Assembly (NCBI GenBank): GCA_032358255.1
Contig: JAULBX010008551.1
Coordinates: forward strand, 51,559 to 115,558
Reading direction: 5' to 3'
Length of the DNA: 64,000 bases
From: Heterotrichella gracilis
Lineage: Eukaryota; Sar; Xanthophyceae; Tribonematales; Xanthonemataceae
Below, piece after piece: positions 255-59,470 of the stretch (positions within the stretch are counted from its first letter, which is position 1; every line of letters starts with the position of its first letter). The position numbers and the translations under genes are program-made. Under the pieces are notes generated by a model. That model was given only the letters and a program-made list of their open reading frames with translations, was not told the origin of the DNA and ran no database searches.

Positions 255-3200
255 ATGGCAAGGGGAGCGACACGCAATCAGTCCCAGCAGGGGGGGCGCA
301 AGCGCAAGGCTAGCAAGGGGGATGACCCTGATCTCCATGGGGGAGTTGCAAAGAAGCAGGAGGCAGCAGGGGAGGAAACCGCACCTGGTAGGTACTGACT
401 CAATCAATTACAAGGATTATTTGACTGATCAGATTGGGCCGGTGGTGAGAAATCATCATCCACCGAATCTGATTACTCACAAAGACCCTTGTACATGGCT
501 CAGTGATGAGTGATGACAGGTCATGAGTGATGAGTGGAGTGATCACTGCCGTGCTAATCAGCTGTTTGACCTCTGCATAAGTAATTATGAGTCAATGTGG
601 CTGTGTGACCGCCCCTGCAAATAAGTATTAGACGGATGTGGCTGTTTGACCTCCCCTGCAAGTAATAAATCATTAATCTGGCTACTTGATCTCCCCTGCT
701 CTCCTGCTCCAGCTGCAGGCGACTCCCCCCCACCCCAGCATGGCACTGACCCAGCCGAAGCACAGCCAGGGGAGCAACCCAAAGGGGGTGTTCAAGGGGA
801 GGAAGCTCCCGCCAACACAGTGCAGCAGCCAGTGGGCACCGAGGGGGAAATGCCTGACAGCGTGATTGAGGAGGGGAGGTTGCTTTTCTTCTACCGCGCG
901 CGGGTGGGGGTGGAGGAGGCGCACTCGCTGGACCAGGTGCAGCGCTCATACATGGTGAGAGGGGAGGGAAAAGGATGGGATTGAAAGGGGAGGAAAGGGG
1001 AGGGAAGGGACGGGTGCCCAGTGGGAGATCCACCTGATTGCCATCTGTAAGAAGCACCTGGTTGCAATCCCCGATAATCTGCATCCCAGACAAGTGCTTC
1101 GCCTGGAATCTACTGCAATCTGCTGCTGCAAATTTCACCAGCATTCTGTGTCATGTAATGTATCCCCACCGCAGGTGCTGGCCCCCACCTCCCGCCCCAC
1201 CGGCCCCCTGCGCCTGATCGCCATCCCCAAGAAGCGCCTGCCCAGCACCCGCCGCAAGGAGCGCGTGTTTGCTTTCGTGGACAAGGTGCAGCGCGACATG
1301 GAGGCAATCACGGGGGACCTGGGCGAGAAAACGTGGGTAGGCTGCCAGGACTTGGGGATGGGTTGTGGGGATTGCATTATGGATGGAATCATTGGGGACC
1401 TGGGCGAGAAAACGTGGGTAGCTGTCAGGGCTTTGGGGATTGTTGTGGGGATTATTTTAGCAGACCTCAGTCTGGAATTGCATCTGTAAAACAGGATGTC
1501 GTTTGTGTTTTGTTTCCATGTTGTAATAAGAATTCTAAAATTACATGCATTGCGTTCCCTTTTGTGTAATTTTTTGCATGTACAAGACCACGCATGCTTG
1601 CACGCGGCAACAATAAATTTAAGAAATGTAAGAAACATTTCATACTTATATGAATATGACTGTCAAATATTTTTTGTGAAATCTTGTATATGCATAATTT
1701 GCCTATTTCTTCCACAGGTACGAGACCAAGACCCGTGGCACCCGCACGCTTGCCCCCGCACGCGTGGCAGCAGAGGGGGTGTATACCCTGGTGGGGCGCA
1801 AGGGGAGTGCGCAGCTGGGGTATGTGATGAGTGTGCCTGAGCAGGCGGGGCCTGTGCAGAAGGCGCTGGGGCTGGAGGGGCAGGGCAGCTTTGTGCTGCA
1901 GGTCAAGGTAGGGTGTCGGATTTAGGGTCCAGGACTTGGGGTTGGTGTTGGTGCGGAAGAGGCAGGGCAGCTTTGTGCTACAGGCCAAGGTAGGGTCTAG
2001 GGTTTCCTGTATGGGTTTTGGGACGTGCGTTCTAGGTTGGAGGGGGAGGGCGGTGGTGTGATACTGACGCTTACACCTTGCTTGCGCGCAATACTAATCT
2101 GGCTGTATTGCTAAATGAAATGTAACTAATAAATTAGCTAATTAAGTAAGTAACGTTTGGGTTGGCGTTGGTGCTGGATGGGCATTGCACGTCCTGGGCG
2201 GCAGGTAGGGGTCACTAACAGGAAGTGGGGTAAGCTTTAGAGTACATGTCTGCACTAAGGGATTCTGCACTGCACCACAGTCTAGGCAATCACCTCCATG
2301 CAATCACCATCCCAATACCCTACAAGGAATGCTCAGGCACCAATCCCAGATCTGCAGAACCTACGCCCCCAATTCGAAGCCCTAAATTCCCGTAGAACCC
2401 CCGAGCGTTTCAAACCCTAACCCTGAACCCTGACCCCCGCAGAACTCCGAGTGCCCCAGCCCCCTCAACGCCGGCCTGGATACCAAGGCTGACTACATCC
2501 TAATCCCTAAACCCCAAACCCTAAACTCCGCAGAACCCCGAGCGCCCCAACCCCCCCAACGCGGGCCTGGACAACAAGGCCGACTACACCCCTGGTCAGA
2601 AGGAGGAGTTCCAGGGATATGCGTGGATCCCCGCCACTGACCCCACCCTCTTGGATCAGGAGCGCTGCGAGCTGCTGCTGGTGGGGGCGCATGAGGAGGC
2701 AACAGGTTGGACATTTTGCCAAAACAGAGCCATTTGCACCCAAGACATTCCATTCTACGCACATATGGAATTCCGTGGTAGCTAATTAGGGATAGAAAAT
2801 ACGTGATGCGTAATACGTAATACGTGGTATTATGTATTTTTTTATTTGCATGGAAATAATACATTGAACATGCGTTATCTAATAGCAGTGAAGTGACCAT
2901 GTTTGTGACGCCATTTCACGTCGAGAACTCCATTTACCGGCATGAACAATGTCTCACAAGGTCACATGCAACCCTCAGCTACCAACTAGGACTCAACATA
3001 GCACACTTTTACTGTCTGAGGGCCAATACCTGCCTAAAATAGAAAATGCGATGGAAATTGACATATATTTCACAATTAATATGCGGTCACTGACAATTAT
3101 TTTGCAAGCAAAAATGGTTGCATGAAGTCTTGTAAGCCCGGCATGTATCAATATTGTGACTCCTGTGCTAAAATATGCACTTGGAAATTTATCTGTGACT

Positions 3201-6625: not shown

Positions 6626-9609
6626 TCAGCCCACCCCTCTTCCATGAACAAATCCTCGGATTGGTCGCTCCATGACACCCCGTCAGGGAACTCCTCCTCC
6701 CCGTCCTCCCCGTCATCCTCGCCCCCCTCCCCCTCCGCGTCCCCCTTGCTGTGCCGCCCCCCCTCCGACACCATCTCCAGCCCCCCCGCCTCCACCAGGG
6801 GGTCGGGGTGGATGTAGGTGTAGTGGGGGTGGGGGGAGGTGGCGGCGGTGAAGCCAGTGAGGGGGGCGCCAACCACCTTCACATAGCTCAGGCATGCTGC
6901 ACGAGGATAAACAGTAGAAAATAAAATAATAAATATAAACCGCATTTAATAATATGCCCAAAATATGTATCAACATTCATTTTATGGAGCATCATATGCT
7001 TGCCTACGTGGCCCTGTCCTGAACGAGAGTGACCATGCATGCGTGGCGCCTACCATAGGATATGCGTGGCTATGCATATGCACATGCTTGCCAGCATGGC
7101 CACATGATGTACACCAGAGTTTACCTCTTTCCGGCGCCTGGGCACCTACTGTAGAACAGGCCGTCCACCGCCTGGCGCTATGCATATGGGTGGGATTGCC
7201 AGGCTGGGCACACAACACATAATTTAATACGATACATGATGCACGCCATATCAAATTATATGACTATGCCCAATCTGTACTCATGCACCTACCGTAGAAC
7301 AGGCCGTCCACCGCCTGGCGCTGCACCGTCCCCACCAGCTCGATCTGCACCATCCCGCCCCCGCACACCACCCCCGGCACCGCAAACCGCTGCAGCGTGT
7401 CAGCGGGCGCCACCGGCATCAGCTCGGAGCTCCACTGCCATCTGACGGTGCCGCACAGTGCTGACCTGGAAGAGAGAAGGAGGATATGTATTACAAAGCA
7501 CTGCTGAAGTTGTCACCAGTCTAAAGACTGAAGTTGACAGGGAAGGACAGCCTCGGAAGCCTCTCCTTCCCTCACATATTATTATTTAGGAGGGGGGGAG
7601 TGCAGGGGTGGCAACGCCGAGGGGACAACGAGATAACAACAAGCCCTGACATCCCCGCGGCAACAGCGGGCTTTTCATCATTATTTCTAAAATTGTACCA
7701 GGACACCTAATTATCAAAGACACCACAGGCCCAGCAAACCATGCTCAAAAATCTGAGGATATGGCGCTTGCTTAAAACTTAAACCACTTTCTATTTATCT
7801 TCCTATATAATTTGAATGTCAATATGTAATCCGTACCTGGCCTCCCAGGTGAGTGGCTGACCCTCTGGGGTGAAGCAGTCTGCGCCGCCCAGCTTGATGC
7901 GCAGGGAGTGGGGCGCGTACACAGGGGACCCCTGCTGGAAGTAGGCCGCAAAGGGGCGCAGCTGGACCTCACGCACCACGCACATGGGGTGCGCCAGGCA
8001 GAAGGTGATGGTGTCGATGTGGCCCTCGTCCTGCGGGTGGGGTGGGATGAGTGAGGAGAGGATAGGCAACGGAAGGGAGGGATGGGTTTGCCTGCAGGGT
8101 TGATGGTGAGAGGGGGGGTTGGGGTGGGTACAACAGGGCGCAGCAGGATTCGCGCACCACACATATGGGGTGCGCTAGGCAGAAGGGGATGGTGTCAACT
8201 TGGTATCGATTCTCAACCCTACCGGGGCCCGCTAAAACCCTAAACCACAAAATCTGCTGGACCAGTAGTTCAGCCGCCTGCTCCTAAACCCTAAATTCTG
8301 TACCCTAAAACCCTAAAACCCTACCGGGGAGCCTCTGCTTGACCAATAGCACAGCCGCCTGCCCCGATTAACCACATCGGGGTTTAGCACATTCTCCAGG
8401 CGCTCGTTGGTGTGGTCAGTGGAGGAAGCCAGCAGGGCCTCAGCTATGAGGGAGTGGGTGGCGTTGGTGGTGCCCAGCTGCCAGCACAGGCGCTTGAAGA
8501 GCTGGGAGAAGGCCACTGTGGCTGGGGAGAGATCCCACAGGGCGGTGGTTGGGGGTGGGTGGTGGCTGGACGTGGAGGTGGAGGCGCCGTGGGGGGGTGC
8601 GGTGGGGGGGCTGGCGTCAAGGGGGGGCAGGGGGGTGTCCTGGTAGGGGAGGTCGGCTTCTGGTACCTGGAGGGTTTTGGGCGCGTGGGTGAGCCCTTTG
8701 GTGGCGGATCTCTCGCTGGCAATGGGACTGGCAAGCCCGATTGCCCAATACAATGGAAGCTCTGGATCTTGACTGTGATAATAACCAAGACCCGTTTCGC
8801 CAAGGGTTGCCACTTTGGGGTACTTCACAGCGCTTCAGCGACAGGTGGGGGAGCATGGCACTGTGCAGCGTTCACAGCACGCAGCATGGCTTGTGCCACA
8901 AACACTGTGCCATGTGTGCCAAGGAAATCCATGCCACCACCCGTTAGTCATGGTGTCGTACCCCAAATGGGGCGCATAGCATGAGCCTGTATTCCTGGGG
9001 TGTTGCTGCAGGGGAGGCGCCTATGCAGGTACTGTCCTTGTTATTTACCTGTAGGCATATGGCGGGCGTGTAGTCACTCAGGTTGGGGCAACCCCTCAGG
9101 CACAGGCGGCGCCACAGCTGGTGCTCAACCACTGCACAGACAACAACATAATACAAACAACTCAGCGCGAAACCTTCAGACAGGATGGCAATTGAACCAG
9201 CAGGTGCTGAATAATCAAGGCAGTGCTGACTATTCAAGGCAACAAAAGAATAAGCACAACTCAGCGGGAAACCTTCAAGCAGGCTGGCAGCCAACGGCAG
9301 TTGCACCAGCAGTGCTGACTATTTGAGGCGGTGTTTTCCGAGTTTTGCAGGCCGCTGGCATAGTGCTGTTGCAGTGCGGACGTAGCAGTGGGGTGGGTAG
9401 GGTAAGTGCCATCCAGTGCGGCCCTCCCAGCTGCTCTCACCTATGGTGCGAAACCTCCTGCACACCAGCTCGGTCCAGTGGAGGTGCGCTGGTGAGAGGA
9501 AGCTGAGAGCTTTTGACAGCACGTCATCCTGTGAGGGGGACAAGCAGGAAACGTGAGGGCACAGCCATGAGTTGGGTGCAGTGGGATATGAATGGTGCCA
9601 TGGGGACAT
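6583..9609 (-). CDS. F-box protein, At4g00755-like
   Basis: Six exons read from high to low coordinate: 9609-9441, 9131-9049, about 8822-8325, 8030-7837, 7465-7293, 6896-6583; about 476 aa. Exon 1 holds the F-box (DDVLSKALSFLSPAHLHWTELVCRRFR), continued by VEHQLWRRLCLRGCPNLSDYT. Later exons match the plant At4g00755 type: CYWSSRGSP, then VVREVQLRPFAAYFQQGSPVY, and the end of the domain SYVKVVGAPL. The tail is acidic. F-box proteins of this kind supply substrate recognition to SCF ubiquitin ligases by binding SKP1; the substrate is unknown. Phases agree at all joins, but the exon 3 acceptor (near 8822) and the start ATG at 9609 are less certain. Introns carry decoy copies of exon edges. Confidence 0.8.
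7136..7180 (-). repeat. Intronic copy of F-box gene exon 5 end
   Basis: The + strand bases agaacaggccgtccaccgcc here repeat those at 7297-7316, which encode the end of exon 5 (VDGLFY) and its donor. The copy keeps a donor-like site. Confidence 0.75.
8105..8320 (-). repeat. Intronic decoys of F-box gene exon 3 end and exon 4 start
   Basis: On the minus strand, 8210-8130 reads VDTIPFCLAHPICVVRESC, a diverged copy of the exon 4 start IDTITFCLAHPMCVVREVQ. Bases 8210-8275 repeat the exon 3 end and its donor (tggtccagcagattttgtgg, then ccccggtaggg). Several CCCTAAA motifs lie between them. Confidence 0.75.
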
Positions 9610-12767: not shown

Positions 12768-15700
12768 TCACTCCACGTCCGGGAAGGTGAGCTGCATGCA
12801 ATTCACCGGCGTGGTCTCGGCAGGACAGTAGGGGCACTTGAACGCCCTCGACAGGCTCTTGGCAATCCTCAACACGCTCTGTTTGCACAGCACGTGCCCG
12901 CAGGGCAGCATCCAGGGCGGGTTGTCGGGGCTGCTCTGCTCCCGGGAGACGGGGCAGGCGAATATGGAGTGGTAGATGAACTCGCGGCCCAGCTCGATTT
13001 CCACGGGTAGCTCCTCGCATCGCTGCAGCTCCTGGCTCTTGCCCCCCATGACCTGGGCCAGCTTGAGGAGCACGGGCAGGGCGATGGAGCCGGCAGACAC
13101 GCTCACCAGCAGGGGCGACTCCAGGGCCTGCGGGGTGAAGTGTTTAGGGTTCAGGGTAGGGTTTAGGTACTTGTGGTGGTTGAGGGGTTTGGGACAATGA
13201 AGCCGGCAGACACGCTCACCAGGAGGGCGACTAGAGGGCCTGCGGGGTAGGGTTTGGGGTTTAAGGTGGTTAAAATTTTCTTGTTTATATATTCTTTTGG
13301 GCGGATGAAGGCAGCAGACACGCTCATCGGCAGGGAGACTCAAAGGCCTGCGGAGAGGGGCTTGAGTTAACTTATTATAGATTTGGGCTGGGGCGATGGA
13401 GCAGCCGGCATGCTCAACAGGAGGGGATACACAGGGGCCTGCCCTTCTGTGTAGGATTGTATGCTGGGCGCATTTTTTATTGTAAAAGTTGCATGAAACC
13501 TCGCAATGCGCACCCCGGCGTGTGGCCCACATGCACCACCGCCGCCCATGCACCCCCCCAAAAGATTGGCTGCTTATTAAATGATCGTTTCTTTTGCTTT
13601 TATTCTAAGCAATTGCTGAAAATTTATGAAATCGCAAAATTAAAAAACAAATAGCAAGGAACTCAGCATGAATTTCCCCTATTTTCTGGTTTCCAGGCAC
13701 CCACCTGGCCCACCACGCTGCAGCACTGGCGCGCAAACTCCCTCACCACCTCGTCCCAGTGGCGCGCATCCACCACGTCTGCGTAGGGCGAGGAGGCCAG
13801 GCGCCGCGCGTACACCACGCACCCCATCAGGCGCTGGATGTCAGGCAGACAGGTGGCCTGGAAGCGGTGGAAGTGGGTGCGCGCATAGCGGAGCGCGGCG
13901 CCGGGGCCTGCGGGGGAGGGGTTGGCGCGCATCGAAGATCATAAAAGGGTTATTTTTTGCGCTGAATCCCTAGCAGATCTCTAGGTGTGCATTTGCATTA
14001 GGCGGATGGAGACGCGTGTGTGCGGTGCAGGGCGCAATAATGGGGTCTGCAGGGGTAGATTGCAGGGTGGAGGGTTTTGGGGTTGGAGTTGAGCTGAATT
14101 TTGTTCCTCATTCTATTTATTTATAAATGCACCTGTGTCCCTCAGCAGCTGCACAATCTGCTAAATTAGAACTATTTCTGTTTCTTTACCATAATTATTT
14201 GCGCACCTGTGTCTGTCAGCAGCTGCACAAACTGCAGCCTGTGCAGCTTGAACTCAAAGGCAGCCAGGCCCGCATCCCCCTCCATGGCATCCCGGTGCTC
14301 ATCCACCCACTGCAGGGCGGGGGCAAGGTTGCGCGCATGGATCTGCAGCGGGGATGGGGGCGTGGGAGAATACAGGACCGCTTCTGCCCTGGGTGCTAAG
14401 GATGGCAAGATTTTACATAGTCAGGAATGGTTAAGCAGGCGCCCAGGCCCGCATTTCCCTCCATGCCGGCGCAGTGCCCTACCACCCATTGCAGGCTGGC
14501 TGCCAGGTTGCGCACGCACATGAAGGGGCACACCATGTGTGCGCAACCTGGCACCTCCTGCCGCATCTGCGGTGCATGCGCATGGCTACATATATGGGTA
14601 CATGGGTGCATGGTTCATATAAGCAGATGTCTCCCTGCTGCACACCTAAGTACTGGTTGGTGCTGGGAGCTGTATGGCCCCTTGAATGTACTCCCGTGCG
14701 CTAGACTCCCACACAGCAACAAACCACTACCTCTAAACCCTGAACCCTAGTGCATTCCCTCGGCACCCACCTCGCGCAGCACTTGGTGCATGAAACCCCT
14801 AACCTAGTCCCTAAACCCTAGCGCATTCCCCCGGCGCAGCACTTGGTGCATGAAACCCCTAACCTAGCCCCTAAACCCTAGGGCATTCCCCTGGCACCCA
14901 CCTCGCGCAGCACTTGGTGCATGGAGCTGTAGGGCCGCTTGAGGCTGTCCCCATCAGCCAGGCCCGCCTCGAGCAAGAAGGTTTCGCCTACCTCGAACCT
15001 GCCAGCCTGGAACAGGTGCTCGGCGATGACCTGGCGATGAGGACGGCGTGCAATTGGGGGTTAGGAAAGGAGGCTGAGGGGCTAAGTTGGTGGGCTGTGG
15101 GTGGCGGTCAGTGCATGACGGGGAGGATTGTGGCAAGGAGGGGGTGATTGTGAATGCAGAGCAAGGCGGGGGGTGCAAGGCGGGGGGTGGGGGGATTTGC
15201 TGGTGGGTCGAGGGGTGGTGTGGACAGTGGGTGATGAGGGGAAGCGTGCAAAGCGAAAAACACACAGTTGCTTGTCAATGTGCTTCAAGGGGAGCGTGCA
15301 CATGGGGGAGGCGGTGTGCTGTACCCCACAGCCATATGCGAAGGTTGTTGACCCGCCCACAGCCACCCGGGTGGTGTAATGGGTGCATTTACAGATTGTG
15401 TGGGTGGTGGGTGGTGGGTGGTGGTGTGGGTGAGGGGTGAGGTGTGTGTGCGGGGGTGGCGGGGTTCACCTGGTTGAGTGTATCCTGGTCGAAGGACACC
15501 TCCCGCAGAGCCTTGCATATGTCCGACTCAAAACCCTTCTCAATGACCTGCAGGGTATTCGAGAGGTGGGCGAGTAATGCGATGACAGATGGAACGCCCG
15601 CCGCAGTCTTTACGGCCCATAGGCAGTGTGCGTGGTTGAGTAAGCTACCAAGCCCCAACGCTGCACTACAATGCCGCACTCCTGTCAGCGCTGCAAGTCT

Positions 15701-19265: not shown

Positions 19266-22200
19266 CTATTGCTCCGCTGGTGCCTCTACCTCCACCTCAA
19301 CTGCTGTCTCTGCAGGGGCATCCTCCTTAAAAGAAACCTGGAAACACAGGCAGAGGCCACGTCAGCATCTGGACGTGGTTTAGGGTTTCTTGCACGGGCC
19401 ACATGGGGACCCTCCATGAAGGAAACCTGGAAACACAGGCAGGGGCCACGTCATCATCAATATATATTAGGGTTTAGGGTTTCTTGCACGGGCCACATAG
19501 GGACCCTCCATGAAGGAAACCTGGAAACACAGGCAGGGGCCACGTCAGCATCAATATATATTAGGGTTTAGGGTTTCTTGCACGGCCACATAGGGACCCT
19601 CCATGAAGGAAACCTAGAACACGGGCACGCGCCACGTGGCAACCAGCGTGACTAGGGTTTAGGATTCATGTTGCAGGGTTCCATGCACGCGCCACATGGG
19701 CATCCTCCTAGAGATCGACACCTGGCAGCAGGCCGGCAATAAATGCCATCGCCATGCGCACGCTGAATCCACACCCTCCTGCAGCACTGTCCCCTCGGGC
19801 ACGGCCTTGCTGCATTGGCGCATGTTGGCGACATCCATGCCAGCCTAGAAACTCGCAAATTGCCATAATGTAGGAACCTTACACACGATATAGGACTTTT
19901 CTCCTATTTGCACTTGCACCACCCCGGGCCGCAGCAGGTTGTCCCCCAGCCTGAACCCTTCCCAAGCTCTTAAATAGTCCTGGAAACGGAAACCTAGGGA
20001 CCCTGCATTAAGGTTTTCAGTCACTCTGGTCCTATTCTTAAATTATACTTTGTTCCTACCTGTACCATCGCGGGCCGCAGCAGCTTGTCTCCCAGCCTGA
20101 ACCCCTTTCTAACTCCTGAAGCACCGTCCACTCTCAACATCATTGTTTGCCGACCGCATGATGGCGCGGTGAATGGCAATGCCCAGCCGTAACCCCCCAA
20201 TGTTGCCCTACTTTAGGAACCCTAAACTAGAGTTTTCAAGCATTTCTCCCAATTTGTACCTGCACCATGGCGGGCCGCAGCAGCTTGTCTCCCAGCCTGA
20301 ACCCCTTCCTGAACTCCTGGAGCACTGTCCCCTCGGGCACGTCGTTGTTTGCCTGGCGCATGATGGCGTCGTGGATGGCGGGGTCAAAGGCGGTGCCCAC
20401 CCCGGGGACCGCCTCCACCCCCAGGGACTTGAATGTGTCCACCATCTGCTTGTACAGGCCCTGGGGAAGGGAGGGTGAGAGGGGGGTGGAGAGGGGCGAA
20501 AGAGGAGGGGGGTCGCTGGTACGGGTACCATTGGTGGCGGGTTATTGTGGCATGTGGCGTGTGACGCTGGGAGACATAGCAATGACAAACAAACTCTGCT
20601 CATCATGCCATGATGGCGTGATCATCATGGTGAAGCCAATTGTTCCTCATTTCTGCAGTTGCCAAATCCCTTTCCAGAGGTGAATGCGATGCTGCTGTAC
20701 GCGCGGCGCAGGATTGAAAATTTTGGAATTCGCAGAATTTTGCACCCACCTGGTACGCCGCCGCCACCCGTTCCTCCCCCTCCGTCTCCGCCTTGACCGA
20801 CCCCTTGGCGAGCTCAAAGTTATCGATGAGGGGCACAAGTTCCATGATGGCGTCACCCTTGGCACTCGACTTGATGACCGCCTTCTCGTTGGCCTGGGGG
20901 ACGATTTAAGGTTTTGAGTTTAGCTGCGGGTTGGGGTTTCAATCGCGGTTTTCTCATTGGTGTGAGGGGAGGGGTGCAATGGTTGCAAGCGGTGACCCTA
21001 CACTACTACACTAGCACTGCTGTGCATTCGATACAGTGTTATCAGCAGCGTATTGCATGGCAAAATCTAATGAACTAGCTGACCCTTCAAACCCCTCCCC
21101 GCGCCATGCCGTGCGCTTGCAAAGGTTGTCAAAGTCCGCATTAATGAAATTTTAGCCAAATATGCAGCTCTTTGGATGCCTGCCAGGGTTTGGCCTAAAC
21201 CCTAAACAGTTATGAACTCAGCCCCAAAATCTTCAACGAGGAACACCCATGCAGCAACCCCATGCCATTTTAGGAGGAGTAAGTGCTTACGGTAGAAGGG
21301 CCGTAAGCAGGGTTTCTTCGACTCCAATTCCTTATAAACAAAAATCCAATAGAAATACTGGATTATCACCAAAGCTTTTGCGTACCGTGCGCTTGCGGAA
21401 GTTGTCAAAGTCCGCGTTGAGTCGGATGTACTGCTCCTTGGCGGTCTGCACACCCGCTTCCAACTCTGACACGCGCGCTTCGGCGGCAGTTGCGCGCGAC
21501 AGCAGGGCTTCCAACTCGGTCTCTAGAGGGGTGAGGACGTCGCTCTGGGAGGGGAGGGAACATGGCGCGTTGGAATGGGTGGTTCTTAGGGCTGGATGCC
21601 CCTTGCAGGTGCGGCGGGCTTTCCAAAACCTATTGTGTATCCTGTTCAGTTATGGGGGCTGCAGCTATGGTCCGGAAAGACTGCGGCGGACGTTTCATCA
21701 TTGTCCTGTTACTCTGTTATTGGAACTGTGATTCTCATCCAATAGGGTTGCATCCTATGGTCACCCGGGACGCGTACCACCAGCTCCAATGCTTCCATTC
21801 TTGCAGGGTTTTGTTACGATTTTGTCATGCATGTGCAGGGGTCTTAGATGTGCTTCCTTTTAGAAGTGTTTAGTGAGGTATATACCGCCAGCTCCAGCAG
21901 GAGCGTGCTGACATTCTTGTAGGGCACCTGTAGGGTTTTGTTAGGGTTTCACGTACCGCCAGCTCCGGCGTGAGCAGCTCCTCGCTGATTGCGTTCTTGA
22001 GCTTGTTGATGAGCTCGGTGTGCAGGGTGACCACGTGCTGCTCCTCGCTGGCAGGGGGGGTGCTGCACGGGGGGATTGTCAGGGGTGTAAGTGTGAGGAA
22101 GGAGGAAGACACGGCATGGCGTTGTTGAGGTGTAAGGGTTGCATGCAATGTGTAGGGTATGCGATTTCAGGCGCAGTGGTAAGTTCCGTGGTGGTGGTTG

Positions 22201-34282: not shown

Positions 34283-35519
34283 ATGGGGGCTGAATTCCGG
34301 GATGCTTACACGGTGCTGGGGATCCCCAGAGATGCCACAAAGGATCAGGTGGGGTTTGTCTGGGTCAAGGAATGGGCATCGATCAGCTATTAGCCCAGGC
34401 AGTGCATCACTGGTAGCAGGCGAAGCATTGCAATATCACCGCCCGCTGGGTGCAGTTTTTCCTGCATTTGAGCCACCAACCATCAACCCTCCTTCATCCT
34501 CCACAAGCACCCACCCACTCCCACACCGTGTGAAGGCCGCCTATCGCACACGTTGCCTCTCAAGGGCCACCCGCATACACCTCTCCATCCTTCCAACTCC
34601 CTTCACCCTTGAATCACCATTTTTTACCTTTTATGTAACTCCCCGAACCCCCCTTATCAGGTGAAAGCCGCCTAGCGCGCACTATGCCTCAAGGGCCACC
34701 CGGACCAACTCCCATCCATGAACCACCTGCCAATAACCAATACGCACACCACAAACAACCCCCATTCACCATCCCTCGAACTCCCTCGACACTTGAAACA
34801 CCAATGGTCACCCCCTCCACACCGACCCCGCCCACCCCCCACCAGGTGAAGGCCGCCTACCGCGCACTATGCCTCAAGGGCCACCCCGATCTACTCCCTC
34901 CTGCCCAGCGGCCTCTGGCTGAGACCAGCTTTAAGGAGGTGACTGAGGCATACAACAGGCTGATGAAAGGGGGGGAAGCGGGGCGCAGCTGGCAGGTGCA
35001 GAGGCATGGGCGGGCAGGTGAGGCGGTGCAGGGATTGCATTTGAGAAGCTGCAAAGGTGTGGTGTGTGTGTAAGGGTGTGTGGCAAGAACCCCATGGCCT
35101 CATGCACTCGCGCATGCTGTGCCCTGTTTCTCACCTTCCACATCATTCCCATGCCATACCCCCATCCCCACCTCCACCCATGCCCACACCCACACCCACA
35201 CCAACACCCACCCTCCGCAGGCGCAGCCGCAGCCCGCGCCGTTCCCCGCTTCTCACACACCATGGTGGCTGGGGTCATTGCCTTCCCGCTCATACTTACG
35301 GGTATATACCTGTCACGCACACACGATGATGCGGCACGCGCCTCCTGGCGGCCCCATGGCTTGCTGCATCCGCCGGTGAACCCGTTCTTGAAGGAGGAGC
35401 AGAGGGCGAGGGTGTACAGCAGGCGGGGGGGAAGGGAGAACGAGCAGAGGGCAAGGTTGCACAGTGGGAGTAGAGGGGGGAAAGCGCAGGAGTCACCGCA
35501 GCCACGGCAGGAGGGATGA
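34283..35519 (+). CDS. J-domain (DnaJ/Hsp40) protein with one membrane segment
   Basis: Three exons, 34283-34348, 34846-35017 and 35221-35519; phases agree; about 178 aa. Exon 1 has helix I (FRDAYTVLGIPRDATKDQ). Exon 2 has helix II (VKAAYRALCLKGHPDLLPP) with the HPD tripeptide that stimulates Hsp70 ATPase, then FKEVTEAYNRLMKG. Exon 3 has one hydrophobic segment (MVAGVIAFPLILTGIYLS) followed by an Arg/Glu-rich tail. A small J-protein with an internal membrane anchor suggests recruitment of Hsp70 to an organelle membrane (mitochondrion, ER or plastid not decided). Two decoys of exon 2 precede the real exon, and the last exon is copied downstream. Confidence 0.85.
34528..34703 (+). repeat. Two decoy copies of J-protein exon 2 start
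   Basis: Copies at 34528-34575 (gtgaaggccgcctatcgcac) and 34660-34703 (caggtgaaagccgcctagcg) match the real start at 34842 (caggtgaaggccgcctaccg). The second keeps an AG acceptor but has an in-frame TAG. Units are about 150-185 bp apart. Confidence 0.85.
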
Positions 35520-35593
35520 CACACATGATGATGTGCCAGGTGTCCCTTGTCTCGTGTCCCTTGCCTCGTGTCCATCTTCTGATGACACCATGG

Positions 35594-35754: not shown

Positions 35755-35759
35755 GGCAA

Positions 35760-42173: not shown

Positions 42174-44119
42174 TTACCCAATGGTCACGCCATGGCATTC
42201 AGCCTGCTCCTCCATATAGCCCTGCACCCACCGCAAGGCACCTAGCCTCTCACCATCCCCCACTGCCTCCACCAGCTGTCCTTCAAGCTCCTTCAACCTA
42301 AACAATTTCCTCTGCCCCTCTGACTGAACCAGCTGATCGCACTCCACTGCTATCTCCCACCCCTGCCCAACCACCCGCAGCTGTTCTGGCGGCATACGCG
42401 GTGCCCAAAGCCTTAACCAGGGGTGCAAAGGAGCAGTGAGGGTCAGGGCACAAATTTCCCTTAAATCCAGATAGGTGAGGTTGGGCAAGGCGGGGAGGTG
42501 AATGGGGATGCGGCCCTCTTGTATATTGTTTAAGCCATGTAGACTGAGGTGAGAGACAGTGGCTGGCACGTGTGGTAGCAACTGGGTATCTATTTTCCGT
42601 ATTTTACCAAACCCAAGACATGTCACTGGTGGCAGGAAGCGTGGCCAGTCACTCTCCGCCACTACTGGTGGTATTCTGTCCAATCCTCCTCTCATTATCC
42701 TATATCCGTCAGCTTCGACGCTGAATTTCTGCAGGCCTGCTGGCCACCAAGGACCAGGCCCCTGTGGCAGCCGCAGTGTTGACCACCAGAGTGCCAGGCT
42801 GAGAGCGGTCAGCGCGGTTGTGGGGCGCAGGTCCAGAGTAAACTCGCCATGATCTGCGTACACCACCGCCAGGCTCAAGCTGCGCAGGTGGGGCAGGCTG
42901 CTGAGGGGCAGGCGCCAAGCGCCTGGGGCTGTGGGGTAGGGGCTGCACCACTTGCCCATGCGCAGCGTGGCATCCACCACAGAGGGCATTGGAGGCAAGG
43001 GGAATGAGATGTTGCCGACCATGGCATCCCCAAATTCCGACTCCAAATCCAGGGACAGGCTAGTGAGAGCTGTCAGGCGGCTGAGGAGTGCATAGGCACC
43101 TGCCAAGTTTCCGTGGTCCAGTTCATCGTCCCTATCATATTTGTCTGCCACTGCAGTCACGCTTAGGTCCAACACCTGGAGCCTGTGCAGGCATGCAATT
43201 GCCTTGAACAGCTCTAATGGAGGCATCCTATAATCGCCATAGCTGTCCCGGGCATGAAGTCGCAGAATCTGGACATGTGCAGGCGCCAGAGCCTCCAGCA
43301 CACCCAAGGCGTGTGAACCACCATTGAGGTAGAACCCGGAAAGGTCGAGCTCCCTTGTGTGCTGCAGGTGCTCCAGCATTGTGTCGTAAGCATGGGTGTA
43401 AGCAGGGGTGTTGACGTGGCGGACAGGAAGGAATTCGTCCACCCGCTCCCACACCAGGTTCTCCGGAAGCAGGCTGTGCCAGCGCTTGCACACGGTGGCG
43501 GCTCGCGCACGTTCAGACATGTCCAAGCAGAGCAGCACCTGTGGCAGAGGGACAATGGTTGTGCTAGTTGGGCAGCGCAGGTCTCTTTGAGAGCAGTGCA
43601 GGGTAAAGTGTAGGGTGCAGGCGCACAACCCTAGGGTTGGGGCTAGCTCTGCCAATGCAAAAAAAAACTGGGTTTCCTCCAACTGTCAGCGATGCTTGTG
43701 CAGGTTTATGTATTGGTCATCGACCTCATACAAGTACTTGAAGTCCCCCTGCCGCCAGGCCGAGTGGCTTATTTAGGGCATATCAACGAGCAGCAACAGG
43801 TGCGTCTATTATGCTAAACCTGTGCTTTTAAAGAGTTGACCATCCCAAGCACAATAGTGTGGCAAACCCACACCTGAACTCTGAACCATAGTTTTTGGTC
43901 AAACACGCTCTAGACGAGCGGACGGTGCCCATGCCAGTCCACTTTGCAAGGCAGCAGTACCTGTTCCAGGGCGTCATCAGGCAGGCTGTTGAGGGTGGCT
44001 TGCTCATCAGACTGTGATGTCTCTCCGAAAGTTTCCAGAGACGTCATGGAAGGCTGCTGCGGGTTTGGTGGCGGGTTTCCCACTGTACTAACTTTGCAGA
44101 CTGGTGGCCGCATATGCAT
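42174..44119 (-). CDS. F-box protein with leucine-rich repeats
   Basis: Two exons, 44119-43961 and 43538-42174, joined in phase 0; 507 aa if the first ATG is used. The F-box spans the intron: ATLNSLPDDALEQ, then VLLCLDMSERARAATVCKRWHSLL. The rest shows degenerate leucine-rich repeats (TRELDLSGFYL, VQILRLHARDSY, LQVLDLSVTAV, LTSLSLDLESEF, LRSLSLAVVYAD, LTALSLALWW, VSHLSLHGLNNI, LTYLDLREICAL). Such proteins are substrate receptors of SCF ubiquitin ligases; the target is not predictable. The 1.36 kb second exon is long for this window, and the gene has no decoy copies. The first ATG lies inside a small inverted-repeat element, so the ATG at 44046 (MTSLETF) may be the real start. Confidence 0.8.
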
Positions 44120-44228
44120 TCAGCGATACAGACTGTCTATACAGACCACGATGCAGCTTGCAAGTATAGGGTTTGAGTACAGACCATAGTTCGAACAACC
44201 AAACGTATCACCAGACTGCAAAGTTAGT
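44085..44228. mobile_element. Small inverted-repeat element (MITE-like) at the F-box/LRR gene start
   Basis: ACTAACTTTGCAGACTGGTG at 44087-44106 is the inverted complement, with one mismatch, of CACCAGACTGCAAAGTTAGT at 44209-44228. The 100-bp interior has no coding content. The left arm overlaps the first in-frame ATG region of the F-box/LRR gene. Confidence 0.6.
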
Positions 44229-46556: not shown

Positions 46557-49500
46557 GTGGTGGCAGAAGTCGTGATGGTAGGGATGGAGGGTGGTGGCAT
46601 GGAGTCAAGCGGCTGCGGGTGCTTCAGCAAGTGGTGGTCGCCAAGGAGCGCCAGGCAAACGTCCAAAGCAGACTCCACACCCAACACTCATTCCAGCAAC
46701 CAGCGATTTGAAGACGCTCCTCAGCTTGATATGCAAGATCCCAGTGGGAGGTAGGTTCACATGAGTCAACTGTGAAAACATTGGCCCGGCCCATGGTTGA
46801 ACCTACTGCCTGAGGTCCTTTGGCCAAATATTCTGCCACATGAATGTCTGGGGCCAAATCTTGTCACAGTACTGGATCCATGGACCCTCAGCCTGAGTCT
46901 AGCCTAGCCCTGCAGTGCACTGAGGGGGTGTCACGCATGGATATTATCTGACATGGGATTCACTCCTTGAGGTGGTGCTCCTTTAGCAAACCCTAGTAAC
47001 TAGGCTAGGCGGCCAGGAACTGCGCATGGCACCTTGAGTGGCCAGTGGCAACTGGGTCATACCGCTACTAATATACAAAGCCTCATTGACTGACAGGAAG
47101 GGAGCATAAGTATCCAATTTCCCTGCAACATAAGGCGCCGCAGGCCGCTAAAACGCATGCTAAGCTACTCCACTTGAATTCCTCACGGAATTGCGTTGTA
47201 GTAAGATAGCATGTGTGTTTAGCTAGTGATTAACTTGACGTACGTCCGTACGATGGCTGCAAGAATTAGAGTTGCAAGGTTGCTGACTGCAGCCATGGCT
47301 GTGCTGCGCAACCTTTGTCCATCTAGGGTACACTAGCCTTTTAATTGTCCTTTGGACCCCTCAGCGATGCTGCCAGGCTCTGTAAGTGCAGTCAACTCGA
47401 TGAAAAGGCTTAGCTACTCTCTTGCAGATAGTCAATGACAGAAATCTAGCTGGCCTTAATGTCCTGCGGAACGCATGTAAGGGGAAGTAATATTAAGTGA
47501 TCAGCCAACGTTTTCCGCTGCAGGCCGTCCACCAGCAGCGGTGCTCCAAAAGAGTGCAAGCTGAGCAGCAGCTCCAGTGAGCAAGTCTCAACACCATTCA
47601 GAAGGGGCATCCTGCACGAGCTTGAGACGCAGTCAAGGGCATCCAGGAGCCCTCACAGCAGCACTCGAGAGATCCTGGAGCCGGCCACACCGCACGCACC
47701 GCATGCTGATGGTAGGGGAAACAGTGGACAGAAGGGCAATACCCATTCTTTTGCTAAATCCTCTTCCTTAACCAACGCGCCTGTTCAAGGACAGGCTGCG
47801 TGGATAGTTATACTCTTATCTTTTTATTCACCGCATGCAGACACCGAGACTGACCACGACACCCTGAGCCCACCCTGCAGCGAGGTTTCAGCCCCAACCC
47901 TCTCATCCCCAGTCAGCAGCAGCAGGACAGTGGCATCTGATGCAGTGCCATCAACTAGGTTAACCCAGGGCCTGATTACAGGCGTCTCCTTGAGTGAGGC
48001 GTACGTGCAGGAGCTGAATGCCACGGGGGATCCCGGGTCAACAGACGTGTCTGGGTTCACCCACAGCCAGGGCTATGGCGGTAAGGCTTGATTTGATGCT
48101 CATGCGTGCAACTCCTAGGCGCCAGCTAGTAGTAAAACAATTCAGTAATTAAATTATTTATTGAGTAAATTCAAAATATTTGTGCAATAAAACATCTAGA
48201 GCCATTAGCAAACTTTTCCAACCCATTGTGAGCTTGGCTTTGATTGCCAGCAACCCTGCCGGCGAGCCGCAGTGCGTGCCTTGTGTAGGTGCCAGCCCTG
48301 ATTTACCTGCAGACGGATCAGTGCATCATGTACTTCAACCTGACCTTCATTATAAGACTTGTTACAACAATTGTATGCAGTGTGGCACAGTTCTGAGAAA
48401 TGCCATGCGCAAATTGCTTGAGCGCAACATGTGCAAGGCTGACTGCTACTCTGGCTGCATTGCTCAATTGCCGGCAGGCGCATAGCCTATGCGGCATGGC
48501 ATGTGACCTAGTAACTAACTATGCCTCGTGTGGGTACCAGCCCTGATCCCTGCAGGCAGCCGCATCGATTCCTCCCTCAGCGGTCCCCTCAGCAGCTCCC
48601 CCCACATGTACAACAGCGGCAAGAGCGTGGTGCCCAAGGATTGGGACTGGGTGATCAACAGGGGGAGCATCAAGTTCATGCTGGACGACGCGGGGGAGAG
48701 GCAGCTGCTGGGGTCGGGAGGATTTGGAATAGTAAGTGCTTGTACTTGCCTGTGCTACTTGCCTGGTGTGGATGATGGGGGATTGAGCGGGGAGTTGCAT
48801 AGTCACGTGGCATGGGTGTGGCTGGATGTGGAGGCTTTGGGATAGTGCATGGTTCACCTTTTTGTCTAGACGTGACTGCCGTTGTGTCTTAGGCATTAAG
48901 TTCATGCTGGACAACGCGGGGGGGAGGCAGCTGCTGGGGTGAGGAGGATTTTGAATAGTGCGTGGTTTTCCCTTCTGTGTAGACGTGACTGGCATTTAAA
49001 CTTTGACGTTATGTCTGAAGGCTTTTTATAATCCAATCCCTGTCTGACCAGGTGGATGAGGAGATTGCCATCAATTGCGCGGCCAACACAAAACCCTTCC
49101 AGAAACCCTATCTGCATGTATCACAACCCCATACAAAATCTCCTATTGCACAAGGCCCCCCTGGCCCACAAGCGTACCATAACCCTAGCTGAAACCCTAA
49201 GGATATGCGCAGGTGTACAAGGGCACCCTTGGCGACGTTGAGGAGGTTGCCATCAAGGCAATGAAGCCGCTGAGCAATACCCTACCTAAACCCTATGCAC
49301 ATGCGCAGGTGTACAAGGCCACCCTCGACGATGTTGAGGAGGTAGCCATCAAGGCCATGAAGCCGCTGAGCAATACCCTACCTAAACCCTATGCACATGC
49401 GCAGGTGTACAAGGCCACCCTCGACGATGTTGAGGAGGTAGCCATCAAGGCCATGAAGCCGCTGAGCAATACCCTACCTAAACCCTATGCACATGCGCAG

Positions 49501-51262
49501 GTGTACAAGGCCACCCTTGACGACGTTGAGGAGGTAGCCATCAAAGTGATGAAGCCGCTGAGCAACCAGGCTGAGCTGGAGGAGTATGAGCGGGAGGTGC
49601 TGCTGCTCAGGGGGATACGCAGAAGGTGGAGTTTGCGGTGCCACCGTGTTTGCGGTGCCAACGCGAGAAGTCATGATAGTAACACGATTAAACCTCCTAT
49701 GATTGGTACACATATACGGATAGTGGCAAATGTAGCTACCTTTACGCAACCCCCCTTGTGAAAAATAGATACAAAAGGGCCACAGACAAATCCAAATAGG
49801 GAAAAACAAATCTGGCAAATCCTTTGTCAACAAAGCTGCACAGCCTGTACATTAAAAGGCAAACTGTAAAAGAGGACTGGGTTGGAGGGTATTACCCGCA
49901 AAATGTCTTTTGTTTGCACCTGCCAGGGAAATTCCATATTCCTCCGCAGGTACATCGTATCTTTCATCGGCTGCGCATTTGAGGACGCGCGGCCCCTGAT
50001 TGTGTCTGAGTTCATGTCTGGAGGGGACTTGTTCCATGCGCTGAGGGATCCCAGCACCAAGGCAGAGCACATGTGGCACAGAAGGTGGGGAATAGGTCAT
50101 TTACGCAATACAGCCAATGATCATCCGTATTTTCAGCACACTGGACTTTCGAAATTCAGATGGATCTGAATTTCTTGCCCATTTTTTTCACCAATTATAT
50201 TAAACGATTCAACGTCTTACAATGTAGATTCAATTTGATCGTTTTACAATTGATATTTTGTCCAATGCACGCAGGGGCAAGCACATCGCGCACAACGTCG
50301 CCATCGGCCTCCACTTCCTGCACCACACCAAGAAAATCGTCCACTTTGACAGCAAGAGCAGCAACATCCTGCTAGCCCCCGACGTGGCCAAGCTCGCCGA
50401 TGTGGGGTTTGCAAAGTACAAGGAAAACACCATTTTGAGCACACCGGGGGGCATGGGCACCTTCTGCTGGACAGCGCCTGAGCTGTTTATGGACAAGCGG
50501 GTGAATGAGAAGGCGGATATTTTCAGCTATGGGGTGGTGCTTTGGGAGATTGTGACAGGGGAGGTGCCGCACATGAGGGCATACAGGGACAGGAGGTAAG
50601 AGGGGGGGAAGGGAGGGTGGGTGACTGGTGTGGGGGTGTGTGGTGCTGGGGGGAAGTGTGTCAGGGGGGGGTTCTGCTGGCGTCTACACACCAGGGTGTA
50701 GTGAGACAGGAGGTGGGTGGTGATGGTGGTGGTGGTGATGGGGGTGCTGAGCAGCAGTAATCGTGCTGGATGGCGCGCAATCATTTTGTGGACCAGCAGG
50801 ATGCGAGAAGGCTGAAACTGTCAGCCGCAGGGTATTACCCGATCCAAATGGAAAGCGTACGTAGTGCGGCCTGGCAAGCATTGCACCTCGAAAGGCCCTT
50901 GCGGCACACAAGGTGCATAAATAGGCCCACTTGCCTGTGGATCTGATGCGATGCAGCTATAACATGATTGTCAAACCCTATGTTTTATAAATTGTTGACA
51001 AAGATTTTGCAGATCATACAATGCACAGATTCAATCACTGATAAATATTTACGCGTGCCAGCAAGCAAGTGGCACCTGTACCATTTGGACACGATTGCAA
51101 ATACCGCAACATGATCTCAGCTGAATTCATCCTAAATGTTGCAGGGTGCCGGAGGAGTGCCCTGCAGCCATTGATGCTCTGATCGACAGGTGCATCACCG
51201 CTGACCCAAGCCTCCGGCCTGACACCATGGAGATCATCACATGCCTGAGGCAGCAGCTGTGA
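46557..51262 (+). CDS. Plant-type (TKL/RLK-like) cytoplasmic protein kinase
   Basis: Eight exons, 46557-46750, 47524-47711, 47841-48080, 48556-48731, 49501-49625, 49950-50084, 50275-50595 and 51145-51262; phases agree throughout; 498 aa. The N-terminus (MESSGCGCFSKWW, ATG at 46599) has Cys residues suited to palmitoylation; then comes a Ser/Thr-rich linker. Kinase landmarks: P-loop LLGSGGFGIVYKA, VAIKVMKPL lysine, helix C Glu in EEYEREVLLL, catalytic loop IVHFDSKSSNILL, ADVGFAK in place of DFG, MGTFCWTAPELF, FSYGVVLWEIVTGEVP, and DPSLRPD. HxD, its Lys and Asn, and the DxG Asp are present, so activity is plausible. Exon 5 has three extra in-frame copies just upstream that may also be translated. 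Confidence 0.85.
48893..48962 (+). repeat. Copy of kinase exon 4 end
   Basis: Bases ggcattaagttcatgctgga through gctgctggggtgaggaggat repeat the exon 4 end (IKFMLDDAGERQLLGSGG). TGA replaces the TCG Ser codon and TTTTGAATAG replaces TTTGGAATAG, so the copy is broken. Confidence 0.85.
49052..49500 (+). repeat. In-frame 96-bp tandem copies of the kinase lysine-strand exon
   Basis: Three copies start right after CAG at 49213, 49309 and 49405, the real exon at 49501, exactly 96 bp apart. Each reads VYKATLDDVEEVAIKAMKPL followed by SNTLPKPYAHAQ; the first has G for A and D changes. Copies two and three are nearly identical. Every copy has its own acceptor (gcgcag) and no stop, and 96 is a multiple of three. 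The spacer contains CCTAAACCC. A more diverged copy (VDEEIAINCAANTKPF) starts at 49052. Confidence 0.9.
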
Positions 51263-56973: not shown

Positions 56974-59470
56974 AGTGCCAGGACCACGGCATGGGCCTCC
57001 CCATCCTCAAGGGGGAGTTTGCCAATGTGGTCATGAGCATCTATGAGTGGAACGCGAGCGCAGGGGGGGTCAACCAGTGCAGGGGTTGGTGCGGAGAGGT
57101 GCCGGGCTGCGTCACCTGGTCTTACCTGCAGCTGGACCCCTGGGCTCCGGGTTGGGGACGCAACCTGTGAGTACGGGAAACCCTAAACCTTACATCCTAG
57201 GCTGGGCATACCTGCAACTGCAACCCTGAGTTTGGGGCTTTGGGATGCGCCCTGCGAGTCCGGAAACCCTACACCCTACCGCCTGAAAAAAAATAAAACC
57301 TAGCATGGGCAAACCTACAACTGGATCCCAGGGCGCGACTTGTGAGTATGGAAACCAAAAACCCTAACACTACACCGGGTCCTATCTCCAGCTGCAACCC
57401 TGGGCCCGAGGCTGGAGAGGCAACCCAACGTGCGTAGAAAACCCTGAAGGGAGTTCAAATACCCTAAACCTTAACAGCAGTGTGCAGGGGGCAGTGCGTA
57501 GAAAACCCTAAAGGTGTTCTGCGGTCCCCACTTGGCCATTTCTCCGGCTGGGGACAGCATGCACTAGTGAGTACGAAACCCCACATTATAGTAAGCTGGC
57601 TAGTAGGACTAAAAGCTGTAAAGGGTCCGAGTAGCTAGGGTTTATAGTAAGTTACCCCAGTTGAACATGAGCTTCGAAGTTCTGCCGAGTGCCTTTCTTC
57701 TGGGGCGGTCAATGGAACATACACCGGCTGACCAAACAAGGAGCAATAGGGGTGGGTACTTTTAAGTTTGGGATACAAAAATAAAGTGCTACATCAATTC
57801 CTTTGGGATTAAAAGCGGTGCCAGTTTTTAGGAACGCGTTCCTCCATATCCTGCCCTTTCTTGTACCTGCTGTACCTCCCATTTTGCAGGGCACCCGGGA
57901 CGTGCTTCCTCGTTAACACCAACAAAGACGTCTCCCTGGCAGCCATGGAATGGGCACAGGGGGTGACCTTCTGGGGAGTGACACCCACCGAGCACTTGGG
58001 CCTGGTGCTGAGGGGGAGCGACTGGTACTCTGGTAGGGCTTTGCACAATGCACCAGCTTAGGGCTATAAGTAAAAGCCACAGAAAACATGGAGAAGGACC
58101 ATCTAGTAGGGTTTCCGATATAAATACCGTATAGACAGGGGTAGGATGATGTCGTAGGGTTTAATTTAGGGTTTTAATCATTGGGGTCACCTTGCGGGGA
58201 GTGACACCCACAGAGCATCCGGGCCTGATATTGAGAGGAAGGGACAGGTACTCTGGTAGGGTTTTGCATACCAAGGGTGTCACAAGGGAGGGTTTTGCAA
58301 ACCAAGGGATTTGCATACCACCGCGAGGTATACCACCCACAACTTAGATTTTACTGATTGCAGCTTGGTTGCTGATAGAAATTTATCCAGGGCCAGGGTT
58401 CATATGTCAGGGTTGGGGTTTGTACCATTGAGGGTAGCCTGTGCTAAATTTGAACCCTCTTGGCTAGGACCTCGGGTTTTCCTGGATGGCAACCCCTGAC
58501 ACTGGACTTGCAACTGGGCATGGACACTGAGCTGCAAATGTGCCCCTGTGTATTCCTCTGTGCAGGCTCTTGTGTGTGGGTTATGCCCCCTTGGTTGGGC
58601 CCAGTCAGCCCCCAAGGCCATTCCCACGCAGCCATCATCGCCATTGTGGTGGCGTGTGTGGTGGCTGCGGCGGCGGTGGTGGTATTTGTTGTGTGGAGGA
58701 GGAGGGGGGGGGGGGGGCTGTGGAGTGGGGAGCGGCTGTACGTGGTGGTGCGTGGCTCGCCATCAAATGCACCAAGTGTTCACGGGTGCAGCAGGTTTCC
58801 ATGTTGATTGGTGCATTGCGCTTGCGTTGATGTACCGACTGGTTGATGCAATAGATCCCGTTGAATCTACATCACCTGTTGATGCCAAAACCCCGGTCGC
58901 ATATGCAACACCCTGCACCTTACGATGTGCCTGGAGTGTCCGCTTTATACAGCGGGTGTGTCCCAATTTTCTGCCGATAAATTTTCCATATCCCTAACCA
59001 TTAATCCCTCCCAATTCACCGATAATTTCTCCATATCCCTAAACCCTAAACCCTAATCCCTCTCCATTCCCCCTTGTCCACAGTCTACCCTTGATCTACT
59101 GGACGACGATTCCGACACCGATCTAGAAAATCTGGACCCACCCAGAGATTCACCCCATCCCCATCCCAGCGCCATTAACCTGACGTCTCACCCTCTGGGT
59201 CCCATGACCACGCACCGCACCCCCGCCACCGAAACCCCAGCCCAAACCCTAGGTGGTGAGCGGAAAACCCTAACCAACAGCTCCGACACCAGTGACACCA
59301 GCGATTGGTCCAGCTACAAATCTGAAGACGAGCTCGAGGGGGGGGTAAATGCCGCACTGCTGCAGGGGGATAACAGGAGAGAACATGCGAGTGGCGAAGG
59401 AGGCTGTGATGCGCCAAACCCTGTTTGGGGTTTTCTAGGTGCGCAGCGGCCATGCACTCCCTGCATTTAA
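56974..59470 (+). CDS. Type I membrane protein with PAN/apple-like ectodomain (5' end missing)
   Basis: Exons 56974-57166, 57890-58032, 58566-58741 and 59084-59470 have agreeing phases. The first two form a Cys-rich domain: ECQDHGMGL, then QCRGWCGEVPGCVTWSY, then APGTCFLVNTNKDVSL; the Cys spacing and W-x-Y after the last Cys fit a PAN/apple fold, which binds sugars or proteins outside the cell. Exon 3 has a transmembrane helix (AAIIAIVVACVVAAAAVVVF) followed by WRRR, the usual stop-transfer. Exon 4 is an acidic Ser/Thr-rich cytosolic tail (DDDSDTDLENLDPP). The 56974 exon starts in phase 1, so at least one upstream exon with signal peptide is missing. The exon 3 donor (GTGGTG) is weak. Confidence 0.65.
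57197..57430 (+). repeat. Three copies of the PAN-like exon end
   Basis: Copies at about 57197-57255, 57300-57345 and 57376-57430 repeat the end of the 56974 exon (SYLQLDPWAPGWGRNL and its GTGAGT or similar donor). For example, cctatctccagctgcaaccc then tgggcccgaggctggag occurs at 57380. CCCTAAA or CCCTAAC motifs separate them. Confidence 0.75.
58186..58262 (+). repeat. Copy of the second PAN-like exon's end
   Basis: Bases ggggtcaccttgcggggagt, gacacccacagagcatccgg and ggtactctggtaggg repeat 57961-58036 including the donor. TTTAGGGTTTT precedes it at 58160-58175. Confidence 0.8.

Follow-up and report, generated by a model that had tools for sequence, protein, structure and literature searches.

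Gene models and exon-edge copies in the window

The window is a stretch of 64,000 nucleotides (contig JAULBX010008551.1, positions 51,559 to 115,558 of the forward strand) from assembly GCA_032358255.1, deposited under the name Heterotrichella gracilis, a genome of 68.5 Mb in 903 contigs. Genes in this stretch carry degenerate copies of their own exon ends inside the adjoining introns, and the extent and origin of these exon-edge copies, together with the short runs of the repeat TTTAGGG (or its complement CCCTAAA) that accompany a share of them, are the subject of this analysis. Genes were modelled with a purpose-written finder trained on sequence of the same genome, which joins genes too readily and at times takes a decoy for an exon (for example at locus L045). 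In 306 kb it predicted 405 exons and 347 introns of median length 312, with the consensus AG/GTRRG at donors and TGCAG/G at acceptors (the slash marking the junction). A WDR61/VIP3-like protein encoded in the window has its closest match at 91% identity (P0002), followed by Coccomyxa viridis (66%), Myrmecia bisecta (64%) and C. subellipsoidea (62%); judged from these matches, the DNA most likely belongs to a trebouxiophyte green alga.

To identify local repeats, the window and another 20 stretches of 10 kb, each from another contig of the same genome, were compared with themselves, and pairs were counted at 40 bits or more. Loci L029-L032 had been fetched by telomere pattern. They were included in the cluster classes, the listing of junctions and contiguity, the intron-intron comparison, the codon decay, the homology and source of spacers, and the breakdown of high-identity clusters. 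They were excluded from the run densities, the run-in-cluster counts, the intron edge test, the polarity of spacer motifs, the one-unit-intron test, the splice-site position profile and the intron odds ratio. An earlier note on this DNA had described exon-edge copies in most genes and cited nine places. All nine overlap a local direct repeat pair, the one at 26310-26360 being weak (26302-26471; 73%), and 8 of the 10 gene models in the window contain at least one local-repeat cluster.

On the plus strand, an exon end and its donor-side copy at 1298..1453 form two nearly contiguous copies of a unit of about 81 bp (87% over 77 bp), with the donor inside the copy. The exon ending at 1907 has a donor-side copy (1867..2005; 84% over 57 bp) in which a junction TTTAGGG abuts the left copy, and the exon starting at 2534 has an acceptor-side copy (2412..2591; 82%) within a 91-bp unit that includes CCCTAAA runs at 2412-2420, 2505-2514 and 2516-2526. 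Two degenerate acceptor-side copies belong to the exon starting at 34846 (34498..34898). In a kinase gene, the exon ending at 48731 is accompanied by a donor-side copy (48667..48967; 88%) containing 2 stops, and an acceptor-side array of four 96-bp units (49182..49565) precedes a further exon edge, only the last copy continuing into the exon. Each unit of this array holds one telomere-like run (49192-49200, 49285-49295, 49381-49391 and 49477-49487). The four units and the intervening telomere-like stretches read as one open frame over 49201-49761 (96 bp being 32 codons), so that retention of the array would add in-frame repeats and not stops. The exon ending at 57166 has weak, degenerate copies on its donor side within 57113..57425 (74-77%), with CCCTAAA runs at 57178-57189 and 57359-57367, and a donor-side copy of the exon ending at 58032 (57960..58268; 83%) has TTTAGGG runs at 58155-58174 in its spacer.

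On the minus strand, a donor-side copy at 7142..7322 (38 bp at 97%) is separated from its exon by a 105-bp non-telomeric spacer that is not homologous to the flanks. Exon-edge copies at 7954..8196 (62 bp at 87%; 8105-8320 in the earlier note) and 14258..14513 (77 bp at 77%) are joined by several degenerate ones in 13079..13442, with TTTAGGG runs at 13142-13151 and 13157-13167, and by tandem units of 60-72 bp at 14721..14923 that contain CCCTAAA runs (14733-14741, 14809-14820 and 14869-14880). A GrpE-like gene has an acceptor-side array before its last exon (19313..19708) with a unit of about 94 bp and one TTTAGGG run, in plus-strand reading, per unit. The same gene shows, within 19776..20379, the working end of exon 20257-20463 and three decayed donor-side copies of it (20057-20177, 19860-19962 and 19776-19830). 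In the WDR61-like gene (30693..30997), the donor-side decoy at 30693-30777 is 87% identical to the working exon end at 30912-30997, and at 31684..31948 the donor-side decoy 31699-31751 of the exon end 31896-31948 adjoins a telomeric run (31684-31697).

Extent and decay of the copies

The self-comparison yielded 122 direct repeat pairs at offsets of 50-300 bp. Their density at these offsets, 370-570 per kb of offset, compares with 2 per kb at 2-5 kb, a more than 100-fold excess. Overlapping pairs merge into 93 clusters, of which 49 are exon/intron, against 22.2 in a random-relocation null (standard deviation 3.9, maximum 34). The other classes, with their null values, are exon/exon (18 vs 24.9), intron/intron (9 vs 21.8), intergenic (5 vs 19.2) and other (12 vs 4.9). 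The placement beside the splice site that the earlier note had called invariable therefore does not hold for every cluster. A bias of detection, by which a conserved exon copy stays recognisable for longer, was considered as the sole cause of this focus on exons and rejected, because the 22 clusters at 88% identity or more include 9 exon/intron and 0 intergenic cases (with 6 exon/exon, 6 other and 1 intron/intron).

The alignment of introns to their flanking exons against a control, proposed in the earlier note, gave a strong excess. It covered 320 of the 338 predicted introns in the window and L001-L028, namely those of 60-1500 bp with flanking exon pieces of at least 20 bp. At a score of at least 30, 60 of the 320 introns (18.8%) match their own flanking exon, compared with 0.7 per swapped set and 2 antisense; at 36 or more, the figures are 47, 0.1 and 0. 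The copies lie on the same strand as the exon and usually reach the splice site: among matches scoring at least 44, 16 of 24 on the donor side and 14 of 19 on the acceptor side stop no more than 1 nt short of the exon edge. Where copies end within 6 nt of the edge, the GT of the pseudo-site is retained in 12 of 18 on the donor side (17 of these 18 copies being listed one by one) and the AG in 11 of 14 on the acceptor side. The matched exon piece has a median length of 54-59 bp, with a distance of about 100 bp between copy and splice site in this test. Median intron length is 414 with an edge copy vs 299 without.

The copies are mostly decoys that decay like non-coding DNA. Mismatch rates between exon and non-exon copies at the three codon positions are.106,.095 and.201, roughly the pattern that should appear when a conserved exon is set against a copy decaying freely. 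Gaps between them are not multiples of three in 75 of 82 cases, and 16 of 1162 aligned codons are stops. The third-position excess is slightly above a simple neutral estimate, and given this a few copies may be coding. Alongside the decay by stops or indels originally described, intact copies are common as well, 28 of 59 exon/non-exon copies being free of both stop and frameshift. That the outermost copy is the working one was borne out in the two genes compared with homologues: P0002 spans both duplicated places of the WDR61-like gene uninterrupted, and the GrpE proteins of Myrmecia and Elliptochloris (P0122 and P0145) match the working exon whole and once, and the copies only in fragments. 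At L021:4076-4397 an exon of about 110 bp is duplicated with differences that by eye are mostly synonymous; this is probably a retained coding repeat from the same kind of event.

Telomere repeats in introns and at splice sites

Features absent from the earlier note are a telomere repeat at the junctions of the copies, target duplications abutting telomeric tracts, and a polarity of these tracts. Exact CCCTAAA arrays of 70 bp gave 5 forward matches, each beginning at base 4 to 7 of its contig, and another 6 in reverse, spread over four contigs. Since the forward arrays sit at contig starts, TTTAGGG is very likely the organism's own telomere repeat; Coccomyxa viridis has the same one (PMC10693582). 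Exact telomeric 21-mers are also scattered through the genome (834, vs 0 for the reversed word). Telomeric runs of at least 10 number 121 in 294 kb, where 20 permuted units gave a median of 4 and a next highest value of 9, and their density per 100 kb is 76 in introns, 20.5 in intergenic sequence and 3.5 in exons.

Runs and copies occur together. Among the 320 introns, 77 have a telomeric run of at least 9, 47 an edge copy and 27 both, so that 97 (30%) have either (odds ratio 6.0, p 8e-8); the excess holds in all three length classes. Duplicated spans make up 10.9% of intron, and 72 of the 151 intronic runs are found no more than 20 bp from one. Likewise, 19 of 45 exon/intron clusters contain a run of at least 9 where 4.8 were expected.

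Close to donors (up to 40 nt, on both strands) and shortly ahead of acceptors (10-40 nt, chiefly on the C strand), runs of at least 8 reach several times their mid-intron density. The same pile-up appears in counts that use no gene model: TTTAGGG follows AGGTGAG within 30 nt 642 times vs 158 at 200-230 nt, and CCCTAAA precedes TGCAGG by 5-35 nt 2161 times vs 1334 at 205-235 nt, with reversed controls of 11, 18, 17 and 35. By eye, about 10 motifs of splice site plus telomere repeat, among the matches listed, recur within about 200 bp on the same contig, as is expected of duplicated exon edges.

Duplications flanking telomeric tracts

Sixty tracts were chosen by telomere pattern alone: 31 head-to-head tracts and 20 single 21-mers, taken among the matches listed, and all 9 tail-to-tail tracts. 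A direct copy on both flanks within 25 bp of the tract was found for 9 of the 31 head-to-head and 6 of the 20 single tracts, or 15 of 51, whereas random 45-bp pseudo-tracts had one in 1.9% (3000 placed anywhere) or 1.6% (2000 placed in introns). In a first pass over 20 sites, 7 exceeded the 99% level of the null. The duplications measure 18-77 bp at 82-100% identity, and clear cases are L038, L043, L045, L067, L070, L072 and L090. In 5 of the 16 tracts with a duplication, one tail-to-tail tract included (L043, L045, L067, L070 and L072), the duplication spans a predicted splice site and extends 6, 4, 4, 17 and 5 nt, respectively, into the intron. At least 2 bases of the presumed broken end are in register with the repeat in 4 of 9 junction sets (L045, L063, L067 and L090), a small set read by hand and unblinded.

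Genome-wide, the head-to-head arrangement, TTTAGGGTTT followed by AAACCCTAAA within 30 nt, gave 84 counts, nested matches at one site included, vs 9 for the mirror arrangement of the same letters. This polarity is the one expected if G-strand repeats were added to both 3' ends before joining. Telomeric motifs inside the spacers of duplication clusters are sparse, numbering 13.

Among 36 clusters with copies at least 82% identical and a spacer of at least 25 bp, the spacer resembles the sequence flanking the copies in 7; the other 29 include one array, L029, whose spacer is a third copy that the gapped check misses. Since most spacers are not homologous to their surroundings, simple head-to-tail duplication is the minority form. 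Homology extends about 30-100 bp into the exon and, in 24 of 36 edge-anchored copies, ends 0-8 nt into the intron, an ungapped extension that halts at the first indel and so understates the homology. Intron gain by duplication of AGGT sites was rejected as the main process: of 335 introns, at most 3 (shifts -4, -12 and -15) equal a duplicated unit in length and have their splice sites at homologous positions. Of the mechanism originally suggested, the recurrent, genome-wide duplication across splice junctions, with longer introns and decoy sites, stands, and a process chiefly of the AGGT tandem type is not supported.

Proposed origin of the copies

Taken together, we consider the exon-edge copies probably to be scars of recurrent break repair in which telomeric repeat was added. 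A staggered double-strand break would have its two ends some 20-110 bp apart, the first a few nt within the intron and the second in the exon. One or both 3' ends would then gain short TTTAGGG repeats, as when a telomere begins to form, before fill-in of the single-stranded overhangs and end joining. The resulting structure, copy-(TTTAGGG)n-(CCCTAAA)m-copy, would follow directly if a break with 3' overhangs were extended by telomerase, filled in and joined; telomerase and fill-in synthesis are the putative agents. Such an insertion would be tolerated where the splice site falls within the duplicated piece: the outer copy would keep serving the exon, and the tract and the other copy would be spliced out and decay. 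Later exchange between copies may have produced the arrays in some cases. As to why the breaks would sit at exon edges, one possibility is that spliced RNA pairs with exon DNA in hybrids whose ends coincide exactly with the junctions. The wider proposal is of a lineage in which breaks are steered to exon-intron boundaries, perhaps by such hybrid ends, and in which their patching with telomere repeat is a main mutational source of intron growth and decoy splice sites; it is put forward tentatively, as somewhat less likely than not.

Several observations weigh against this origin. No abutting duplication was found at 36 of the 51 head-to-head and single tracts, an outcome that deletion or blunt repair could also give, break scars having been scored as duplications, with deletions invisible without an empty site. 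A duplication is also present at 1 of the 9 tail-to-tail tracts. Predicted gene context is lacking for 38 of the 60 tracts, in fetched loci of only 0.5-0.8 kb. A telomeric run of at least 9 is missing from 55 of 85 clusters overall and from 26 of 45 exon/intron clusters, and 15 of 30 good spacers lack even a telomeric 6-mer. When non-telomeric spacers were compared with the sequence sampled, the matches listed comprised, telomeric ones apart, just a few local ones. These spacers may reflect the same breaks with another filler, or a second process; their assignment to the same breaks is the least certain step.

Ordinary small tandem duplication, whether through slippage, through unequal exchange or through the filling in of staggered breaks, and with no special role for telomeric motifs, which would merely be common in introns, would account for the clusters that lack a telomeric run and for the contiguous arrays at 1298-1453, 49182-49565 and L029:1680-1838. 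It is nevertheless unlikely as the general explanation, for it leaves the non-homologous spacers unaccounted for, does not predict the 84:9 polarity, and sits poorly with the duplications found at tracts picked regardless of duplication. The positions of the runs might also reflect selection for telomeric motifs as splicing signals, the duplications being independent. G-strand runs do favour the donor half of introns and C-strand runs the acceptor end, as G-rich and C-rich words do in general, and because of this general preference selection may sharpen the positional pattern. As an explanation of the whole it is quite improbable, since C-strand runs are dense at donors too and duplication and tract co-occur. 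A branch-point role for CCCTAAA near acceptors was likewise rejected, CTAAA being not enriched in 195 introns without telomeric runs and not a branch-site word in other introns (2 vs 26, ratio 0.6).

The converging TTTAGGG and CCCTAAA also resemble terminal inverted repeats, and with the target duplications this recalls an introner-like mobile element that inserts near splice sites. The duplications are of variable length, however, the insert is the repeat itself without shared internal sequence, single-strand tracts carry duplications as well (6 of 20), and no abundant family beyond the telomere motif was seen in about 0.45% of the genome, a sample in which a rare family could be missed; a mobile element is therefore very improbable. 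The comparison behind this, of 347 introns with one another, gave 113 pairs, and the 40 of them that were listed were mostly telomeric or local. Finally, the copies might function as repeated or alternative exons. In some pairs (L021:4076-4397) both members look coding, the gene finder called 18 of 93 clusters exon/exon, and the copies without stop or frameshift fit this too. Yet most gaps have lengths not divisible by three, and the extra piece is absent from the homologues of both genes checked, which makes this explanation extremely improbable. Break repair with addition of telomere repeat is thus preferred to each of these.

Relation to known processes

Short interstitial telomeric sequences in rodents, primates and horse are inserted at double-strand breaks, with deletions, additions or target duplication, the last ascribed to staggered breaks (PMC2246262, PMC7215372). 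Target duplication is reported there at 6 of 130 rodent, 4 of 25 primate and 3 of 66 horse loci, with 2 more horse loci showing mixed changes, and 31% of human loci are intronic, which fits random insertion (PMC2246262, PMC7215372). The tracts described here are similar in placing the organism's own telomere repeat at internal sites with target duplication at the junctions. They differ in the frequency of abutting duplication (15 of 51, against a minority outcome in mammals), in the excess of introns over intergenic sequence and in the concentration at splice sites. In mammalian cells, fill-in of complementary 3' overhangs by Pol alpha-primase guided by CST has been shown experimentally to produce small tandem duplications, and the same machinery fills in telomere ends (PMC8355091). 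Those products are direct duplications at a break, mostly below 100 bp, comparable to the 18-77 bp at the tracts; the part of that report available to us describes no telomeric insert (PMC8355091), and it is the geometry of the product alone that fits here.

Intron gain by tandem duplication likewise involves duplication near or across exon-intron boundaries, and the potato case crosses a boundary. Here, by contrast, an existing intron is lengthened and generally no new one arises. In Daphnia, introns are gained in the repair of staggered breaks, and 43% of those gained have short direct repeats (PMC3443670). Both cases have in common an insertion between direct repeats at a staggered break, whereas here the insert is often telomere repeat and lies beside existing splice sites. 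Introners are recurrent intron-associated insertions, known chiefly from fast-evolving lineages, green algae among them. They make up families of introns that resemble one another, and some families, derived from transposons, carry short target duplications of fixed size, 3-9 bp (PMC9860276). The present insertions are also recurrent and intron-associated, but no family dominates among the introns compared and the duplications are longer and of variable length. A 50-64 bp element with 81-88% identity is common to four introns of unrelated loci (L009, L024, L029 and L031, the last two fetched by telomere pattern), in the same orientation to the gene, and is perhaps a small dispersed intron element.

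Among the papers listed from a library that lacks most subscription papers, judged by title or opening of the abstract, none links interstitial telomeric repeats with splice junctions or with the growth of introns. In mammals the insertion of telomere repeat at breaks is established; its density here, the focus on splice junctions and the decoy exon edges appear to be new. The growth of introns and the origin of false splice sites are old questions with few examples caught in the act. With insert and duplicated target still legible at many loci, the geometry of the breaks, the filler and selection on splice sites become directly measurable. The genome also offers a natural test of the effect of intronic telomeric repeats on splicing, a question left open in the study of horse and human (PMC7215372). 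Were boundary-directed breaks confirmed, telomere addition would be a main mutational source of intron growth here, with a run, a copy or both in 97 of 320 introns.

Other features of the window

A two-exon gene model at 42174-44047, presumably F-box-like, consists mostly of one long exon and is free of local duplication clusters; over part of its length it resembles L010:2825-3653 (64% similarity). At 63614-64000 a minisatellite with 13 copies of a 30-bp unit lies beside a predicted gene and reaches the end of the window.

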